NCBI RefSeq assembly: GCF_000205165.1
Contig: NZ_GL883865.1
Span: 62,001-126,000, forward strand
Direction: 5' to 3'
DNA length: 64,000 bases
Source: Paraprevotella xylaniphila YIT 11841
Lineage (GTDB): Bacteria > Bacteroidota > Bacteroidia > Bacteroidales > Bacteroidaceae
The notes beneath the pieces were generated by a model. The model was not told the origin of the DNA. It worked only from the letters and a program-made list of their open reading frames with translations, and made no database searches. The position numbers were made by a program, and so were the translations under genes. How positions within the stretch are numbered: the stretch's first letter is position 1; each line of letters opens with the position of its first letter. Shown piece by piece: positions 12,747 to 20,317 of the stretch.

Positions 12747-12880
12747 TTTGCATAATCTGCTCACGCTCGGCAGACTTCGAGCAAGCTCGGTCTGCGCTCA
12801 CTTAATCGCAAATTTGCATAATTTGCTCACGCTCGGCAGGCTTCGAGCAAGCTCGGCCTGCGCTCACTTAATCGCAAATT
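12747..12880. repeat. 66-bp tandem repeat with covarying hairpin
   Basis: Two copies (12747-12812 and 12813-12878, period 66) begin TTTGCATAAT and end CTTAATCGCAAA. Each contains a hairpin with outer stem GCAGRC/GYCTGC and inner stem CGAGC/GCTCG. Copy 1 has GCAGAC with GTCTGC; copy 2 has GCAGGC with GCCTGC, so both strands of one base pair changed together. Copy 2 overlaps the last codons and the stop (12864) of the GH51-GH43 gene; copy 1 duplicates that coding end downstream of the stop. Confidence 0.9.
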
Positions 12881-15800
12881 TCTTCGTACCCACGATATAA
12901 ATCCCGTGCGGAAGTCCGTTCACGGCTTCATGCGGCATGACCGCGCTGCGCACTTTCACGCCGCTCACGGTGTACACATCCACCGGAACCGCAGCCGACC
13001 CCGTCACTTCACGTATGGCAGTCGGTTTGCCGACATACAGCAACCTAAAGTTGTCGAAACAGTTCCAGTCGTGGTACCTATACTCAGTCTTGTCCAGACC
13101 GACCCGCAAATCCCCTTTCGCCAATAGCTCGTATTCCACTTCATTGGCACGGTATTCCCCGTCGCGGTTGAAGGCATTGTCAGCCGACCGCACATCGTCG
13201 GGATAGGTATAGGGATTGTAAGTGTAGGGAGCGGAACCGTCGAACAAAGACATGAACGTCTGGCGGCTGTTATTGAGATACAGCCCGGCCAAAAACTGTT
13301 CCGAACCGTCCTGATGCGCGTTATAGGCTTCCGCCTTGTCGCCATAGCGATAAAAGCCTTGGGCGCGAAGACGGTATGTACCGGCCGGCATACGTTCCAA
13401 CACCTGATAAGTGTCGTAAACCTTGTCATAAAACTCAGCCACGCCGGAAGAAGCCGCCGTAAAAGGCGTGCCTTCCCATCCCTTGCTGCCTTCCGAAAAA
13501 TCGGGATTGACTAAAAGCCAGGTAAGGTCTACTTCCTCTCCGGGCGTCCAACCGGCGCACAAATCCCTCGTATAGGCTTCCATCGCCGCTTTCAGGGCTT
13601 CGTAGGCCGCAGGCAAAGCCATGGCCAACTCCGGCACGGAAGTCAGGTCCAACGCTTTTTCGGCTTGCCGGATGGCGGCATCGAACACTTGGCTGCCGCT
13701 CTCCTCCTTCACTTCCCGCACACGTGGCAGGTACAAACGCACGTCGCTCCATGCCTGCAACAGGCGGTATTCTTCTTCCGTCACCGTCATGACGGAACCG
13801 TGCTGGAACGCTCCGGTCCCTTCCACGTTGGAGGAATGCGTCACGTTCAATCCTAAATGGTCGGTCTCGCAATACTTGTAGGCATTGCCTCCGGAGTAAC
13901 GCATATAATACAGGTTGTACATGTCTTCATTGATGCGGCGCACCGTACTGGAACCTTCCACCTGTTCCGAACCTTCGTTCGTCACGTGCATCACTTCCGT
14001 CCAAGTACCACCCACCAACTTCTTGCTTGTAGCTTCATAAATACCCCGTTCCGTACCCGAAGCCCCTTCACGCTTGTAATACATGTGGTAGAGGCTGTCG
14101 TAGGGATTATACACGATGTCCGCGTCGATTACCGAGATTCCGGGGTCGAAAAAGACACGGGGTTGGGTCAGCGTCTTGAACTCCCGGTCGGCATAGGAAT
14201 AGAAAATACGGTCATGGTTGTCGCCTTCGTTCGTGGAAAGTATGGAATAATACACTAAATAGGCACCTTCTCCCCCGTTATAGTCCTTGTCCCAGATGAA
14301 CTGCGGTGCCCATACACGGTTGATACGGGCATATTCCTCATCGGTGTCATATACGCCCGTCGTGACATCGGGGTCGGAGAAGATGGATTTCCCCCGGTTG
14401 AAGTCGAACGTCGTACCCTCCCAATGTATCAAATCCCGGGAACGTACCAAGTTGATGCCGTGGTTGTTCCACACGCCGGAAGCGTGCTGTTTCATGTCGG
14501 TGGTCGTGATGAAATAGCCGTCCGACGCTTCAGCGCGCCCTATATAGGCGTCACGCGTGCCATGTTCTATTCCTGCCACCTGTTCCGTGTCGAAAATTTC
14601 TTCCCCGTCCAACAATACGTGGAACACACGGCCTTTATCTTCCTTCGCACCGAGTGCGAAATTGGTGATTTCCTTTCCTGCGTTCATGAAGCAGTACAAG
14701 TAACCATAGCGGTTGTCATCGGGTGCCAACATCACCGGACACTCCACTACCACCGTGTCGGCCTCGCAACTTAACTTGGCAGACAACACCCCGGCACGGA
14801 CAGCCTCATCCCCTTGCGGCAGGGCGCGTACCACCAGTTTCCCATCCTCTAAAGCAACGGCATCCTCATAGCCTTGGCCTACGGACAAGAGCCATTCCAC
14901 GCCTACTTTGTCGGAAATCATGTTGGGTAATTCCGTCGTGGCATGCAAACAGTTGAACTTCTTCATAAACCGTGCCAGTCCTTCGCGCCCAACACTCATG
15001 GCCACTTCCCGCGACTCCGCCGCACGGTCTTTCACCCGGGCATAGAGTTCCCTCGCCTGCCCTTCGTCCAAAGCCACGTCATAAATCTGGAAATCATCGA
15101 AGAAGACCTCGGCCATCAAGGCATCTGCGGCAAAGGGCGAACGCCCGATATAGGCTTCCGTCAGACGTTCCGCCACGTTGTCCGGACGTTGCGTTACTTG
15201 CTGCTCACTGGCCAGACGACCATCCACGTAAAGCCGCCCCATGCCGCCCGACTGCACGTATGCGATATTATGCCACACGCCATAAGCCAACCCTCCGTGC
15301 GAAGGGGCATCCGTGCTCGCCCCGTCCTTGATAGTGTAATACCAACCCGTGTTGCCCGGGCTGTTCACCAACCCTATGTATTGCTCCGTCCCATGGGCAA
15401 AAGCGTATGCCCAACAATAATCCTCCAACGTTCCTACGCCGGGCAAGGCGATGTCGACCGACATGGTATAATCGGCATCTAACCCGGCCAAGGTACGGCG
15501 TGCCATGTCCACGCCTAAATCAAAAAAACCTTGCTCACCAACAGCACCAGTATAAAGGGCATGGTTGCCGTCATCCATCGTCACGATGGAAGCACCTCCA
15601 CACAACTTCCCAACGAACTTCCCAGCATCGTCAGCTGCTTGCCCACCGTCGAAGGAATACCGCACCAACGGCTCCGGCAATTCCGGTTTTTCTTCTGGAA
15701 CAAGTTCCACGTCCTTCACGTCCAAACGAAGGATACTCAACGAATAGGCCGGAACAGTATAAGTAAAACTACTGCCCGAAACCTCCAATGCCTGCTCACG

Positions 15801-18155
15801 GGGCACCACTTTGTCCGGGTGCTCCAGGCTGTTCTCGTCCGTACCGTTCCCACTTGTCAGCACCACCACCGAACCGCCGGTCGTGGAAGCATGTGCCAGA
15901 TTAACCGTAGCCTCTTGCGGTGTGGAAGACGGATTGACCAACTTCACGTACAACACGCCTGCCTCGTCGTCGATATTGGAAGAGACGTATATCTTGCGGC
16001 TCACCGGCAAAGTGAAATCATGCAGGAGCGCACCGTCCAGATAGCACTTCACGTGCGTGCCGTTCACTTCGACTTTAATACGGTAGGCATGTCCTGTTTC
16101 CAAAGACCCACTCACGGAAGCCACCGTAGTCTTCGACCCGTTGGTGCAAACTTCCACCCCGTGTTGGGTGTTGCCCCATCCGCCGAGGTTCCACCAACAA
16201 TAATTGTCTCCGTCCCCGCAATTAAAGGCGATGAGGAAACCCTCCGCCCCACCGGTCTTCGTGGCTTCCACCTCATACGTATAGTCCTGTCCCGGCTGCA
16301 CATCGCAGACATAAAGTTTGCCTTGCATGCCCTTATCCGTCTGTTTCAGCACGCCGCCCGAAGTGGTCCACGTGCCTCCGTCGGCCTTCCATTCTGGTTT
16401 TACGGACGAGAAATCGTCGTGGAAGACCACCGTCCCGTCGCCTGCCGTGACTTTCACGTTGTCGAAAGTGGCACTCGTGCTCCACGTGCTCAGGCCGATG
16501 CCCCCGGAGCGCAACAGTTGGTTGTTTTCCTCCGTCCACTTCACATTCTGTTTTCCTACATTGTTCGGGAAAAGCTGCTGCACGTAGTACGAAGGTGTAC
16601 CGTAACTGGTATAACTGTTGAAACGGATCATGTCCGGACGCCAGTTGTAATTGTTTTCGTTGACGAATATCGGGGCATAGCTGTTCATGATGCAAACATC
16701 GGAGTTGTTTTCCATCCCCTGCATGAAGACCGCCTCTCCCAACGCCGCATTCAAATGACCATTGACGCCATAGTCCTGTGTCACAGCATACTCTCCCACA
16801 TAGATCTTGTGGCTTGCCCGGCTATAAGAATCATACTTGTTATATTGGTTGACAAACCATGAGGGATTCCTATAATAGTGCTCGTCAACCGCATCCACCG
16901 GATATGGGTTACGCCAACTGGGATTGTCCGTGCCCCATGATTCCACGTTACCAATCAGCGTCACTTCGGGATACTTGGCCTTAATGGCCTTGCGGAACTG
17001 TTCGTAACGTTCAGCATAGTGGTCGCTCTGGTCGTTATTGTTTTCCGAACTGTAATTATAGTTCTCGTTCCCGATTTCCAATAAACGGAGATTGAAAGGC
17101 TCGGGATGGCCGTTCTTGGCCCGTAACGCGCCCCATTTCGTAGTTTTGGCATCGCCGTTGCAATACTCTATCGCATCGAGAGCCTCTTGGATGTATTCGT
17201 CTATCCGGGTATAGTCCTCCACCCACGCATGCCCCATGCCCATATTGACCACGAACAGAGGTTCCGCCCCCAAGTCCTCGGTGAGCTGCAACATCTCATG
17301 GAATCCGAAACCGTCCGACACCCTATATCCCCAATTCTGGTTCATGTGCCCGGGACGTTCCTCGATAGGGCCGATGGTGTTTTTCCACTCAAAACGGTTG
17401 GTTTTTCCGTTGGCATAATGCCCTTCCACGTAACAACCGCCGGGAAAACGTACGAACGACGGCTTCATGGCTTCCAGTTTTTCCGCCAAGTCGATGCGGC
17501 AACCGTTGTCACGGCCTTTGTAAGTAGGCGGGAAAAGACTTACCACGTCCAATACGACCGTGCCGGGCACGGAACCCTTCAGGGCGAACCAACCGTCGCG
17601 AGCCTCTCCCGTGGCCGTGATTTCCGCCGTCAGCTTCGTCCATCCCGAGCCGACATCCACCGTCATCTCTCGGCTACCCAGACTCCGACCGCCCTGAGTC
17701 TGCAACTCGGCTGTAATGACACCCTTATAATCAGGACTTCCTTTTATCCAAAAAGACAGCCGATAAGTCTGCCCGCTCACCACATGAATGCCCCAGAAAC
17801 CCTCGTTACGCACACCGTCGCCCGCGCCTTTGAATTCCAATTCGAGCGCGTGCCCCTGTGCCTCATTCAGCATCCCGTCGGTAACCACGGCCATACGGGC
17901 ATTCCCCACAGGCCACCATTTGTCAGGGTTCGACGCATTGTCCTCGAAAGAACGGTTGTGAATCAGCTCGGCGTAAAGCCCACCGTCGCCGGCATGGTTG
18001 ATTTCCTCGAAAAAGATGCCGTAATGGCGACCACCGATGGAAGCTCCCCGCTGTCCGGCATCGATATTCAATGTAACTTGTGCCATGGAAGAGGCCACAC
18101 ACATTGCGTAAAATGCAACGGGAATAAGCCTCTTGAAAAAAGATTTGCCCTTCAT
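12864..18155 (-). CDS. Secreted multidomain GH51-LamG-GH43 arabinofuranosidase
   Basis: 1763 residues. Signal peptide 1-25; GH51 N-terminal part with inserted CBM4/9-like sandwich (~80-210); GH51 barrel ~215-540 with acid/base Glu364 (EIGNEN) and nucleophile Glu455 (YVGEYA); a concanavalin-like insert ~565-720 ahead of the GH51 C-terminal strands (to ~815); LamG-like domain ~830-1030; GH43-type propeller ~1065-1470 (VWAPQFIWDKDY; acidic residue in IDADIVYN, ~1346; probable acid Glu1400 in QVEGSS); a helical linker; a carbohydrate-binding-like module ~1545-1708; and a GIYI-type tail ending KKFAIK. GH51 and GH43 enzymes remove arabinofuranose from arabinan or arabinoxylan, so this is probably a bifunctional polymer-trimming enzyme. 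No SusC/D pair or regulator is adjacent. The GH43 general base is uncertain (Asp1202 or Asp1212). Confidence 0.88.
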   Translation of the reverse strand: MKGKSFFKRLIPVAFYAMCVASSMAQVTLNIDAGQRGASIGGRHYGIFFEEINHAGDGGLYAELIHNRSFEDNASNPDKWWPVGNARMAVVTDGMLNEAQGHALELEFKGAGDGVRNEGFWGIHVVSGQTYRLSFWIKGSPDYKGVITAELQTQGGRSLGSREMTVDVGSGWTKLTAEITATGEARDGWFALKGSVPGTVVLDVVSLFPPTYKGRDNGCRIDLAEKLEAMKPSFVRFPGGCYVEGHYANGKTNRFEWKNTIGPIEERPGHMNQNWGYRVSDGFGFHEMLQLTEDLGAEPLFVVNMGMGHAWVEDYTRIDEYIQEALDAIEYCNGDAKTTKWGALRAKNGHPEPFNLRLLEIGNENYNYSSENNNDQSDHYAERYEQFRKAIKAKYPEVTLIGNVESWGTDNPSWRNPYPVDAVDEHYYRNPSWFVNQYNKYDSYSRASHKIYVGEYAVTQDYGVNGHLNAALGEAVFMQGMENNSDVCIMNSYAPIFVNENNYNWRPDMIRFNSYTSYGTPSYYVQQLFPNNVGKQNVKWTEENNQLLRSGGIGLSTWSTSATFDNVKVTAGDGTVVFHDDFSSVKPEWKADGGTWTTSGGVLKQTDKGMQGKLYVCDVQPGQDYTYEVEATKTGGAEGFLIAFNCGDGDNYCWWNLGGWGNTQHGVEVCTNGSKTTVASVSGSLETGHAYRIKVEVNGTHVKCYLDGALLHDFTLPVSRKIYVSSNIDDEAGVLYVKLVNPSSTPQEATVNLAHASTTGGSVVVLTSGNGTDENSLEHPDKVVPREQALEVSGSSFTYTVPAYSLSILRLDVKDVELVPEEKPELPEPLVRYSFDGGQAADDAGKFVGKLCGGASIVTMDDGNHALYTGAVGEQGFFDLGVDMARRTLAGLDADYTMSVDIALPGVGTLEDYCWAYAFAHGTEQYIGLVNSPGNTGWYYTIKDGASTDAPSHGGLAYGVWHNIAYVQSGGMGRLYVDGRLASEQQVTQRPDNVAERLTEAYIGRSPFAADALMAEVFFDDFQIYDVALDEGQARELYARVKDRAAESREVAMSVGREGLARFMKKFNCLHATTELPNMISDKVGVEWLLSVGQGYEDAVALEDGKLVVRALPQGDEAVRAGVLSAKLSCEADTVVVECPVMLAPDDNRYGYLYCFMNAGKEITNFALGAKEDKGRVFHVLLDGEEIFDTEQVAGIEHGTRDAYIGRAEASDGYFITTTDMKQHASGVWNNHGINLVRSRDLIHWEGTTFDFNRGKSIFSDPDVTTGVYDTDEEYARINRVWAPQFIWDKDYNGGEGAYLVYYSILSTNEGDNHDRIFYSYADREFKTLTQPRVFFDPGISVIDADIVYNPYDSLYHMYYKREGASGTERGIYEATSKKLVGGTWTEVMHVTNEGSEQVEGSSTVRRINEDMYNLYYMRYSGGNAYKYCETDHLGLNVTHSSNVEGTGAFQHGSVMTVTEEEYRLLQAWSDVRLYLPRVREVKEESGSQVFDAAIRQAEKALDLTSVPELAMALPAAYEALKAAMEAYTRDLCAGWTPGEEVDLTWLLVNPDFSEGSKGWEGTPFTAASSGVAEFYDKVYDTYQVLERMPAGTYRLRAQGFYRYGDKAEAYNAHQDGSEQFLAGLYLNNSRQTFMSLFDGSAPYTYNPYTYPDDVRSADNAFNRDGEYRANEVEYELLAKGDLRVGLDKTEYRYHDWNCFDNFRLLYVGKPTAIREVTGSAAVPVDVYTVSGVKVRSAVMPHEAVNGLPHGIYIVGTKKFAIK

Positions 18156-18212
18156 TTCATGAAAAATATAGAGGTTAATGTTTTTAATTTACAAGACGTT
18201 GCCATCTTTGTC

Positions 18213-18220
18213 CAAAAGTA
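18213..18220 (-). promoter_or_regulatory. Putative -7 element for the GH51-GH43 gene (TACTTTTG)
   Basis: CAAAAGTA on the + strand reads TACTTTTG on the - strand, fitting TAnnTTTG, about 58 nt upstream of the start codon. The CAAA at 18236-18239 could be the -33 TTTG, but the 15-nt spacing is short. Divergent from the metK promoter ~80 nt away. Confidence 0.4.
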
Positions 18221-18295
18221 ATTAAATCCACGTTTCAAACCTAATAAAAATCTAAATAAATGTGGAAGACACACCATTTTCTCCTTTTTTCTCCT

Positions 18296-18303
18296 TAACT
18301 TTG
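18296..18303 (+). promoter_or_regulatory. Putative -7 element for metK (TAACTTTG)
   Basis: TAACTTTG matches TAnnTTTG and lies just upstream of the SAM-II aptamer. A start of transcription a few bases downstream would give a ~135-nt leader holding the whole riboswitch. The -33 region is T-rich (CATTTTC) without an exact TTTG. Confidence 0.6.
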
Positions 18304-18318
18304 CAGCCGTAAATACAA

Positions 18319-18370
18319 ATGTGGATAGATTTGGGCGGCTTGCAACCACGGTAAAAAATGCTAAATACAG
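18319..18370 (+). promoter_or_regulatory. SAM-II riboswitch aptamer upstream of metK
   Basis: The order and spacing of the SAM-II consensus are all present. P1 strand TGTGG (18320-18324) pairs with CCACG (18346-18350). The 21-nt loop between them carries the conserved GATTTG (18328-18333) and TTGCAA (18340-18345). After P1 come GGTAAA and GCTAAA (18360-18365), the conserved 3' pseudoknot strand. The 21-nt loop length equals that of the structurally solved metX SAM-II RNA as I remember it. It lies between a promoter-like element and metK, whose product makes the ligand S-adenosylmethionine, so feedback repression is expected. The start codon is ~75 nt further, so the switch mechanism (usually ribosome-site masking) is unclear here. 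Confidence 0.88.
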
Positions 18371-18444
18371 TTTTGAAACTGCACGCATACCTTCCCAATG
18401 AAACCCCATTCTTATTATTATTTTTTTAATTTAACTACGTAGAA

Positions 18445-19728
18445 ATGGGTTATTTATTTACTTCCGAATCGGTGTCCGAAGGACATCCGGACAAAGTGGC
18501 GGACCAGATTTCCGACGCTGTATTGGACGAATTATTGGCTTTCGACCCTAATTCGAAAGTCGCATGTGAAACATTGGTGACAACGGGTCAGGTTGTCGTG
18601 GCCGGAGAGGTAAAATCAGAAGCTTACGTCGACCTGCAAGAAATAGCCCGCCGTACTATCCGCCGTATCGGTTATACCAAAGCGGAATACAAGTTCGAAG
18701 CGGAAAGTTGCGGCGTATTCTCTGCCATCCATGAACAAAGCGCCGACATCAACCGCGGCGTGGAACGCCAAGACCCGATGGAACAAGGGGCAGGCGACCA
18801 AGGCATGATGTTCGGTTATGCCACCAATGAAACGGAAAACTACATGCCGCTATCCCTCGACCTCAGCCACAAAATCCTGCGTGTATTGGCCGAAATACGA
18901 CGCGAAGGCAAAGAAATGACGTACTTGCGTCCCGATGCCAAAAGCCAAGTGACGATTGAATATGATGATAACGGGAAACCGGTTCGCGTAGACACGGTTG
19001 TGGTTTCCACACAACATGACGAGTTTATCCAACCGACCGACGGCAACCAAGAAGAAGCCGACCGGAAGATGTTGGACAAGATACGACAGGATGTCATTAC
19101 AATCCTGATGCCGCGTGTCATTGCCGAGATTCACGACCCGGCCATACTCCGACTGTTTGACGAACATATCACTTACCACGTGAACCCCACCGGTAAATTC
19201 GTGATAGGCGGTCCTCACGGCGATACCGGACTGACCGGCCGTAAGATCATAGTAGACACCTACGGGGGCAAAGGTGCCCACGGCGGAGGCGCCTTCTCCG
19301 GGAAGGATCCCTCCAAAGTAGACCGTTCGGCCGCATACGCCGCACGCCACATCGCCAAGAACATGGTGGCAGCCGGAGTGGCCGACGAAATGCTAGTGCA
19401 AATCAGCTATGCCATCGGTGTGGCACGCCCTGTGAACATCTACGTCAATACTTACGGACGCAGCCATGTCAGCCTGAGCGACGGAGAGATTGCGCAAAAG
19501 ATAGACGCGTTGTTCGACCTGCGGCCGAAAGCCATCGAAGACCGCCTGAAACTCCGCAATCCCATTTATGAAGAGACTGCCGCTTACGGCCACATGGGAC
19601 GCCAACCGCAGACCGTGACCAAGGAGTTCCACAGCCGCTATATGCCTACCAAGACCCTCGAAGTGGAACTCTTCACGTGGGAGAAATTGGATTATGTTGC
19701 TCAAATCAAAGAAACATTCGGACTATAA
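18445..19728 (+). CDS. metK: S-adenosylmethionine synthetase
   Basis: 427 residues. It forms S-adenosylmethionine from methionine and ATP in the cytoplasm. Motifs: [18 protein letters not shown] at the N terminus, [12 protein letters not shown] (residues ~113-124) and the P-loop-like [21 protein letters not shown] segment (~250-270). The protein is somewhat longer than the ~385-residue E. coli enzyme, usual for Bacteroidetes. A SAM-II aptamer lies upstream and a 14-codon leader frame ends 2 nt before the ATG. Its stop is 1 nt before the LOG gene start. Confidence 0.98.
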
Positions 19729-19729
19729 G

Positions 19730-20317
19730 ATGAACGCGATTCAGTCAGTGTGTGTATACTCGGCCTCCAGTACGAAAATAGCCGATTGCTATTTCCGGGC
19801 TGCACGGGAATTGGGTGAACTCTTGGGACACCATGGCATCCGTCTGGTGAACGGTGCCGGAAACCTCGGGCTTATGAGAGCCTGCGCCGATGCCTGCCTG
19901 GAAGCCGGAGGGCAAGTGACCGGCGTGATTCCCCGTTTCATGGTGGAACAAGGTTGGCAACACCCCGGGCTTACGGAACTGATTGAAACGGAAGACATGC
20001 ACACCCGCAAGCAAACAATGGCCCGCCTTTCAGACGGTGTCATTGCCTTGCCGGGCGGATGTGGCACGTTGGAAGAATTGCTCGAAATCATTACGTGGAA
20101 ACAACTCGGACTATATCTGAACCCCATTGTAGTACTGAATACAAACGGATTCTATGATCCTTTGTTGAAAATGCTCGACCGAGCCGCCGAAGAGCATTTC
20201 ATGCGTCCGGCCCATTTGGACATCTGGAAAGTGGCTTCCACTCCTACAGAAGCCATCGACTTATTGTACTCCACTCCTGTCTGGGACAAGGAAATCCGCA
20301 AGTTTGCCGCCATTTGA
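19730..20317 (+). CDS. LOG family protein (TIGR00730; nucleoside 5'-monophosphate phosphoribohydrolase)
   Basis: 195 residues, complete Rossmann-like LOG protein. Diagnostic motifs: VYSASST near the N terminus, GAGNLGLM, and the catalytic LPGGCGTLEEL, with Arg upstream in MHTRKQTMARL. Plant and bacterial LOG enzymes release free bases from nucleoside 5'-monophosphates (cytokinin-type or AMP/purine); the substrate in Bacteroidales is not established. ATG 19730 is chosen because upstream in-frame codons lie within metK. The next gene starts 2 nt after its stop. Confidence 0.9.
   Translation: MNAIQSVCVYSASSTKIADCYFRAARELGELLGHHGIRLVNGAGNLGLMRACADACLEAGGQVTGVIPRFMVEQGWQHPGLTELIETEDMHTRKQTMARLSDGVIALPGGCGTLEELLEIITWKQLGLYLNPIVVLNTNGFYDPLLKMLDRAAEEHFMRPAHLDIWKVASTPTEAIDLLYSTPVWDKEIRKFAAI

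Follow-up and report, generated by a model that had tools for sequence, protein, structure and literature searches.

How can a SAM-II riboswitch control metK when some 80 nt separate its aptamer from the start codon and the host belongs to a phylum that naturally does without Shine-Dalgarno sequences? A leader in a 64,000-nucleotide stretch of the Paraprevotella xylaniphila genome, hereafter the window, raises this question. A first-pass annotation had placed a SAM-II riboswitch there at 18319-18444. A cmscan search of the whole window finds SAM-II (RF01726) at 18315-18374 on the forward strand with 54.2 bits against a gathering score of 44 (E 1.3e-7), in an alignment that spans all 60 model positions (1-60), and the sole other match above cut-off in the window is a tRNA. 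RF01726 matches one site only in the strain's own 3.79 Mb genome. The window element is confirmed as a genuine member of the SAM-II "long loop" family, far beyond chance. Both the aptamer call, with its P1 and its L1 and GCUAAA elements, and the placement in a metK leader held up, the latter through the strong TIGR01034 match of the downstream gene. The covariance check had been proposed with RF00521, but the family that passes is RF01726. The annotated interval contains most of the aptamer, begins ~4 nt too far downstream and covers the leader in full.

The elements were assigned from the SAM-II motif list, namely a P1 stem, a P2 pseudoknot, GAUUU...UUGC in loop L1 and a 3′ GCUAAA. The two sequence elements are present in the window and invariant in 15 leaders of the genus. 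The P2b pairing, UUGC (18340-18343) with GCUAA (18360-18364), is read by analogy to the SAM-II structure, reportedly that of Gilbert 2008, in which L1 supplies both the triplex strand and the 5′ strand of P2. The RF01726 covariance model itself holds no pseudoknot. The leader RNA is predicted to bind S-adenosylmethionine (SAM). As for SAM-II, the aptamer lies next to a SAM/methionine gene (metK) and behind a promoter-like box, 17 nt before P1. This box fits TAnnTTTG, the Bacteroidota promoter -7 box. The motif stands upstream of P1 in 188 of the 213 leaders with a recognisable P1, at 14-18 nt in 141 of these, against 4.2 on average in base-shuffled upstream sequences. Therefore, the metK transcript probably begins just before P1, which in the window would put the transcription start at ~18310. 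Coordinates are collected in Table 1.

Table 1. Features of the metK leader, in window positions
Feature	Position	Strand	Basis
Promoter -7-like box TAACTTTG	18296..18303	+	17 nt before P1
SAM-II long-loop aptamer, RF01726	18315..18374	+	54.2 bits, cut-off 44
P1 5′ strand GUGG, partner 18346-18349 CCAC	18321..18324	+	cmscan alignment; invariant in 15-leader genus alignment
Loop L1 GAUUUGGGCGGCUUGC, proposed switching strand, made up of the triplex strand GAUUU, a variable segment and the P2b 5′ strand UUGC	18328..18343	+	cmscan alignment
P1 3′ strand CCAC	18346..18349	+	cmscan; invariant in 15-leader genus alignment
AUGCUAAA, including P2b 3′ strand GCUAA (18360-18364)	18358..18365	+	cmscan; invariant in genus alignment
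P3 hairpin CAGUU-UUGA-AACUG, directly 3′ of the P2b 3′ strand	18368..18381	+	folding against shuffles in GGGC-class leaders
Putative anti-L1 strand GCAUACCUUCCCAA, complementary to L1 UUGGG 18331-18335, GG 18337-18338 and UGC 18341-18343	18385..18398	+	MFE fold of the free leader
Putative anti-start arm AAUGAAACCCCAUU, potential partner of the metK start region; shares AA with anti-L1	18397..18410	+	ensemble and swap tests; largely conserved in genus
metK start region AAUGGGUUAUUUAUU, proposed masked strand	18444..18458	+	swap test; occlusion rank
metK, methionine adenosyltransferase, 427 aa	18445..19728	+	TIGR01034 509 bits, cut-off 309.4

Counting a genome as positive when it holds a match at E 0.001 or better, RF01726 occurs in 17 of 18 genomes of the genus, in 166 of 201 genomes and 25 of 30 genera of the family, and in 77 of 119 genomes of the order. 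Six near-complete genomes of genus g6, in the same family (L277-L282), have metK and give no SAM-II match. SAM-I as a replacement was considered for this genus and dropped, with a match in 0/6 genomes. In one of the six, L277, the box TATCTTTG stands 40 nt ahead of the ATG, and the interval holds no aptamer. For comparative work, 276 loci were collected and 231 parsed, giving 217 unique metK leaders once identical ones were removed; the leader counts thus leave out 45 of the 276 loci that were unparsed (41 lacking the aptamer pattern) and 14 parsed loci that are identical repeats. Some leaders drop out of single tests because they are short or miss an anchor, which the n values reflect, and all p values take related leaders as independent or thin them by sequence similarity only.

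In the window, 79 nt lie between GCUAAA, whose last base is 18365, and the metK ATG, close to the ~75 nt first given. Over the 217 unique leaders the gap from UAAA to AUG has a median of 94 nt, with quartiles of 81 and 120 and a range of 5-253. The long gap pointed out in the first-pass annotation is therefore ordinary, and a SAM-II that controls a start 74 nt away has been published for Sinorhizobium meliloti metA (PMC9373788). Nor is SAM-II new to Bacteroidetes: B. thetaiotaomicron is already in the alignment of Corbino 2005 (PMC1273637), Barrick and Breaker 2007 reported the class in Bacteroidetes (PMC2258182), and Weinberg 2010 listed the "SAM-II long loops" of Bacteroidetes and marine sequences, RF01726 (PMC2864571). 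The view that SAM-II normally masks the ribosome site also runs against the literature, where most SAM-II are called transcriptional (PMC2258182, PMC6061858). The suspicion that the mechanism departs from Shine-Dalgarno masking in the aptamer fared better, and the comparative evidence below supports a different platform. In our reading, the window leader holds a known riboswitch, correctly annotated, with a probable new kind of expression platform; it is the platform that would be new, the aptamer family in Bacteroidetes being already known. Among the papers listed in a literature search, none dealt with the expression platform of SAM-II in Bacteroidetes; an earlier description is possible in the additional files of Weinberg 2010.

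Comparison with the known systems shows where the leader departs from them. With the SAM-II long loops it shares a full-model score over cut-off, and Bacteroidetes and marine members appear in the published table (PMC2864571); the RF01726 match, however, stops at 18374, 9 nt past GCUAAA, and so excludes the proposed anti-L1 strand and start-masking arm as well as part of P3. With SAM-II/SAM-alpha (RF00521), as described by Corbino 2005 (PMC1273637), it shares P1, the P2 pseudoknot, a promoter just before P1 and a downstream methionine/SAM gene. Proteobacterial SAM-II (RF00521) are mostly described with terminators, whereas no terminator-like site was found in the window leader. A published parallel in spacing is S. 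meliloti metA, in which a SAM-II aptamer controls a translation start 74 nt downstream, against 79 nt here. According to that report, though, a Shine-Dalgarno sequence inside the riboswitch is needed and a terminator lies between AUG1 and AUG2 (PMC9373788), and neither is seen in the window. A reading of 18366-18444 for a Shine-Dalgarno sequence within or just 3′ of the aptamer gave no GGAG/GAGG-like sequence. SAM-V has a closely similar aptamer core and is described as a translational OFF switch with a P2a pairing 3′ of the aptamer; it hides a Shine-Dalgarno sequence immediately 3′ of the aptamer, whereas in the window the start codon itself, ~80 nt further on, would be paired (PMC6061858). 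Bacteroidota are reported to be naturally without Shine-Dalgarno sequences and to adjust initiation through the structure of the mRNA and through key bases close to the start codon (PMC6847099). The usual route of a translational riboswitch would thus be closed to them.

We consider it about an even chance that the window leader is a SAM-OFF switch that governs start-codon access at a distance, by L1/anti-L1 switching combined with an arm over the metK start, without a Shine-Dalgarno sequence. According to this proposal, the metK mRNA would begin just upstream of an aptamer that senses SAM, the product of MetK, so that plentiful SAM would lower MetK synthesis. Bound SAM would keep L1 in the pseudoknot and triplex. 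When SAM is absent, L1 would be able to pair with the downstream GCAU..CCCAA, which would cover the triplex strand and the P2 5′ strand in part. The arm AAUGAAACCCCAUU lies immediately 3′ of the anti-L1 strand and overlaps it by two bases; by pairing with the AUG of metK and the codons that follow, the arm would close a hairpin across the A/U-rich region where the ribosome lands. SAM binding would free the anti-L1 strand and make the masking arm usable over its full length, favouring the start-masking hairpin and turning translation off with no Shine-Dalgarno sequence involved. The OFF direction and the coupling between the anti-L1 and start-masking helices are what we infer. The parts of the proposal are taken up below in the order in which they follow the aptamer.

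The first structure behind the aptamer is the P3 hairpin. The window's L1 is of the GGGC class. In leaders of this class the stretch that ends at the first GCAY is more stably folded than its shuffles (mean z -1.7, n=59), against +0.19 for a control segment behind it. Within the genus the stems vary yet still pair, as in CAG../..CUG, GCAAUG/CAUUGC (L173) and CAGCUU/AGGCUG (L033); two leaders, L172 and L035 (whose GCAU falls within the stem), lack a stem when the segment is cut in this way. A P3 after the aptamer is thus supported for the GGGC class. In the GAGTAG class no hairpin of this type is seen (z -0.03, n=8).

Downstream of the aptamer, many leaders carry a strand complementary to L1; in the 37 of 147 leaders whose signal is strongest, it lies at a median of 23 nt past UAAA and 47 nt ahead of AUG. 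Examples of L1 and its downstream partner are GAGUAG/CUACUC, UGAUUGA/UCAAUCA and UGACUGA/UCAGUCA; in another, GAUUUGAA..GAUUGC faces UGCAAUC..UUCAAAUC. TACTC occurs in 24 of 28 GAGTA leaders and CAATC in 12 of 14 GATTG leaders, and both are rarer in most other classes. When matched L1/downstream pairs were compared with permuted ones over 147 thinned leaders, with composition adjusted, the matched pairs stood out at z -7.5, with 0/4000 permutations as good, and the signal stayed when the GAGTAG class was removed (132 leaders, z -6.1). In the same direction, an L1 pairs better with its own tail than with shuffled tails over 212 leaders (p 2.7e-9, leaders treated as independent), 35 of which reach p 0.05 or less individually. 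Co-variation of L1 with a downstream strand is thus supported over the sampled leaders by comparative analysis. The signal is uneven among classes. In the comparison with shuffles the GAGC class lacks it and the GGCTGC class lies slightly below the shuffled level (p 0.03 in the wrong direction), and a first L1-segment test with contiguous helices was clear for GAGTAG and null for the GGG classes. In the window's GGGC class alone, where L1 scarcely varies, the matched-versus-permuted test is not significant (979/4000, n=35); without composition adjustment that class gives p 0.016. Covariation of the P1-L1 linker (GGANAG) with CUNUCC in the leader was also considered and rejected, the own variant being no commoner overall than others.

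If L1 supplies both the triplex strand and the 5′ strand of P2, anti-L1 pairing would compete with SAM binding. The main rival to such competition is that the L1-complementary strand replaces P2a. The strand would then be the displaced 3′ strand of P2a, the aptamer would be longer than the Rfam model with P3 inserted within P2, and SAM would stabilise P2b and P2a together, thereby positioning the start-masking hairpin. P2a has been described as a helix between the linker that joins the third strand to the P2 strand and sequence lying 3′ of the aptamer (PMC6061858), and the downstream partner often includes the linker segment here, exact CUACUC being found in 21 of 28 GAGUAG leaders. Proximal P2a, in which an L1 segment would pair directly 3′ of GCUAAA, was not found: the first 14 nt after the aptamer give no matched L1 signal over the 147 leaders (z +1.5), the GGGC class runs the wrong way (z +3.8), and in the window that position is taken by P3. 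Both this missing proximal signal and the location of P3 between the two strands speak for a displaced P2a. In the distant leaders L120, L164, L149, L144 and L276, however, the complementarity extends into GAUUU and/or UUGC, elements used in the ligand-bound fold, as expected of a competitor. We hold a displaced P2a to be somewhat unlikely and retain competition between the anti-L1 strand and the SAM pocket as the working reading.

The remaining part of the proposal is the arm over the start codon. AAUGAAACCCCAUU is complementary to AAUGGGUUAUUUAUU with small interruptions. In 74 GGGC-class leaders the probability that ATGGG pairs with the leader is 0.841, against 0.749 in shuffled sequences, and it is higher in 51 of the 74 (p 1.2e-5); start pairing is also higher in the GAGC class (15/20, p 0.019). 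No such excess appears in the GAGTAG class (15/28, p 0.49), and those in the GATTGA class (10/14) and the remaining leaders (45/79) are not significant. Of 71 ATGGG leaders, 55 have a CCC[AG] arm; exchanging the flanks of the start between these 55 shows that own flanks pair better (mean rank 0.71), and after thinning the mean rank is 0.70 (n=33, p 0.0009). Eight of nine decoys rank at 0.43-0.57; an arm shifted by -8, with the core still inside, gives 0.674, and the flanks alone give 0.647 (p 0.03). As a different target for the masking arm, the P1 5′ strand (AAUGUGG) was discarded (rank 0.539, p 0.17, n=26). CCCAU occurs in 44 leaders of the GAG/GGG classes, out of 117 that have AUGGG. Where AUG is preceded by A, CCCAU is followed by U in 19 of 22 cases; where it is preceded by U, CCCAU is followed by A in 9 of 19 (Fisher test of the A/U cells, 1.6e-4, leaders treated as independent). 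Within the genus, both unique leaders with metK AUGGGAU (L176, L182) carry AUCCCCAUU, and AACCCCAUU is found in 10 of 13 leaders with metK AUGGGUU, L042, L037 and L186 being different. With the aptamer locked, the start is less open than with shuffled tails in 15/15 leaders (14 from the genus, plus L245 from a different one). Among the 39 ORFs of the window, metK ranks third in start occlusion, some starts being uncertain. We regard the start-masking helix as moderately supported.

These pairings might instead arise by chance in C-rich, A/U-rich leaders, the aptamer alone being specific and control depending on the stability of the mRNA or on ribosome standby, both of which have been proposed for S. 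meliloti metA. The signal for the start helix is of moderate size and weakens as thinning gets stricter, the swap effect being gone at the strictest level (n=5, rank 0.575), and the contiguous-helix test of start region against leader shows no excess over shuffles, so that only the ensemble and swap tests show the helix. However, chance does not readily account for the anti-L1 permutation result, the P3 folding signal with its control, or the start-flank swap with its decoys, and we judge this explanation to have only a small chance of being right. The folding results count against the preferred start-masking switch. Two-state folding of the window shows no opening of the start, with an unpaired probability of 0.22 when locked and 0.21 when anti-L1 is formed; over the class there is only a small opening, 0.229 against 0.25 (20/32, p 0.034). 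The whole window leader folds no better than its shuffles (z -0.58). The folding used is nested and cannot represent the pseudoknot.

Control might also be exerted on transcription, with SAM causing premature termination between aptamer and metK, Rho-dependent or at a non-canonical hairpin. Most SAM-II are called transcriptional in the literature (PMC6061858, PMC2258182), the window leader has a U-rich tract at ~18409-18435, and terminator-like hairpins occur in 11 of 215 leaders against 5, 3 and 2 in three shuffles. Strong ones lie in the longer leaders of some relatives: L017, L020, L073, L097, L191, L189, L052 and L221 combine such hairpins with U-rich runs (dG -10.4 to -17.5, gaps 114-204 nt), and 7 of these 8 strongest come from genus g16. 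The window leader, by contrast, is outside the 11, with 0 terminator-like sites in 18100-18600, and the start-flank swap result points to translation; the window's genus contributes only L186 (dG -8.2). For the window we find termination improbable. An anti-terminator formed by L1 with the terminator 3′ arm was rejected for the long leaders, being significant in 0/8 (lowest p 0.095).

A leader ORF that starts from the aptamer's own AUGCUAAA (18358-18429, 23 codons) and controls metK by translational coupling is a further alternative. Frames open from the aptamer AUG average 23.9 codons over 209 leaders against 19.9 with shuffled tails (p 1.7e-5), but the +2 frame is nearly as long (22.6) and no frame-specific conservation is seen. 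In addition, the peptide is unconserved in the genus, running from 6 to 39 codons with changing frames, and in 15 leaders the stops scatter between -71 and +30, counted from metK. The evidence on peptide, frame and stop position disfavours a leader peptide, and coupling of this kind is very improbable.

The preferred start-masking switch may be one form of a wider design. More tentatively than for the window itself, we suggest a Bacteroidota SAM-II platform without Shine-Dalgarno sequences, in which L1 switches, anti-L1 competes with the SAM pocket and the adjoining arm forms a hairpin with the AUG. L1 and its partner would have co-evolved across the phylum, and the output, be it AUG masking, a terminator as in genus g16 or an abutment of 5-6 nt, would have been exchanged between genera of one family. 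The last form is seen in L075 and L081 (genus g11, same family), where GCUAAA stands only 5-6 nt before the metK ATG; because of this short distance they may act by direct occlusion. If true, a start-masking platform on a small, well-solved aptamer would make riboswitch control of translation without Shine-Dalgarno sequences testable in gut Bacteroides, with metK, a central metabolic gene, as the setting. One aptamer before one gene with differing outputs in one bacterial family would also, if true, offer a natural series in which to follow how expression platforms evolve.

The neighbourhood of the leader offers two minor observations. Divergent from metK, a 1763-aa protein (12864-18155, reverse strand) starts ~160 nt from the aptamer and has weak arabinofuranosidase matches under curated cut-offs. 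Downstream, the first ATG of a TIGR00730 (LOG-like) ORF (19694-20317, forward strand) overlaps the metK end by 35 nt, and because of this overlap the ORF may be co-transcribed with metK under the same riboswitch.
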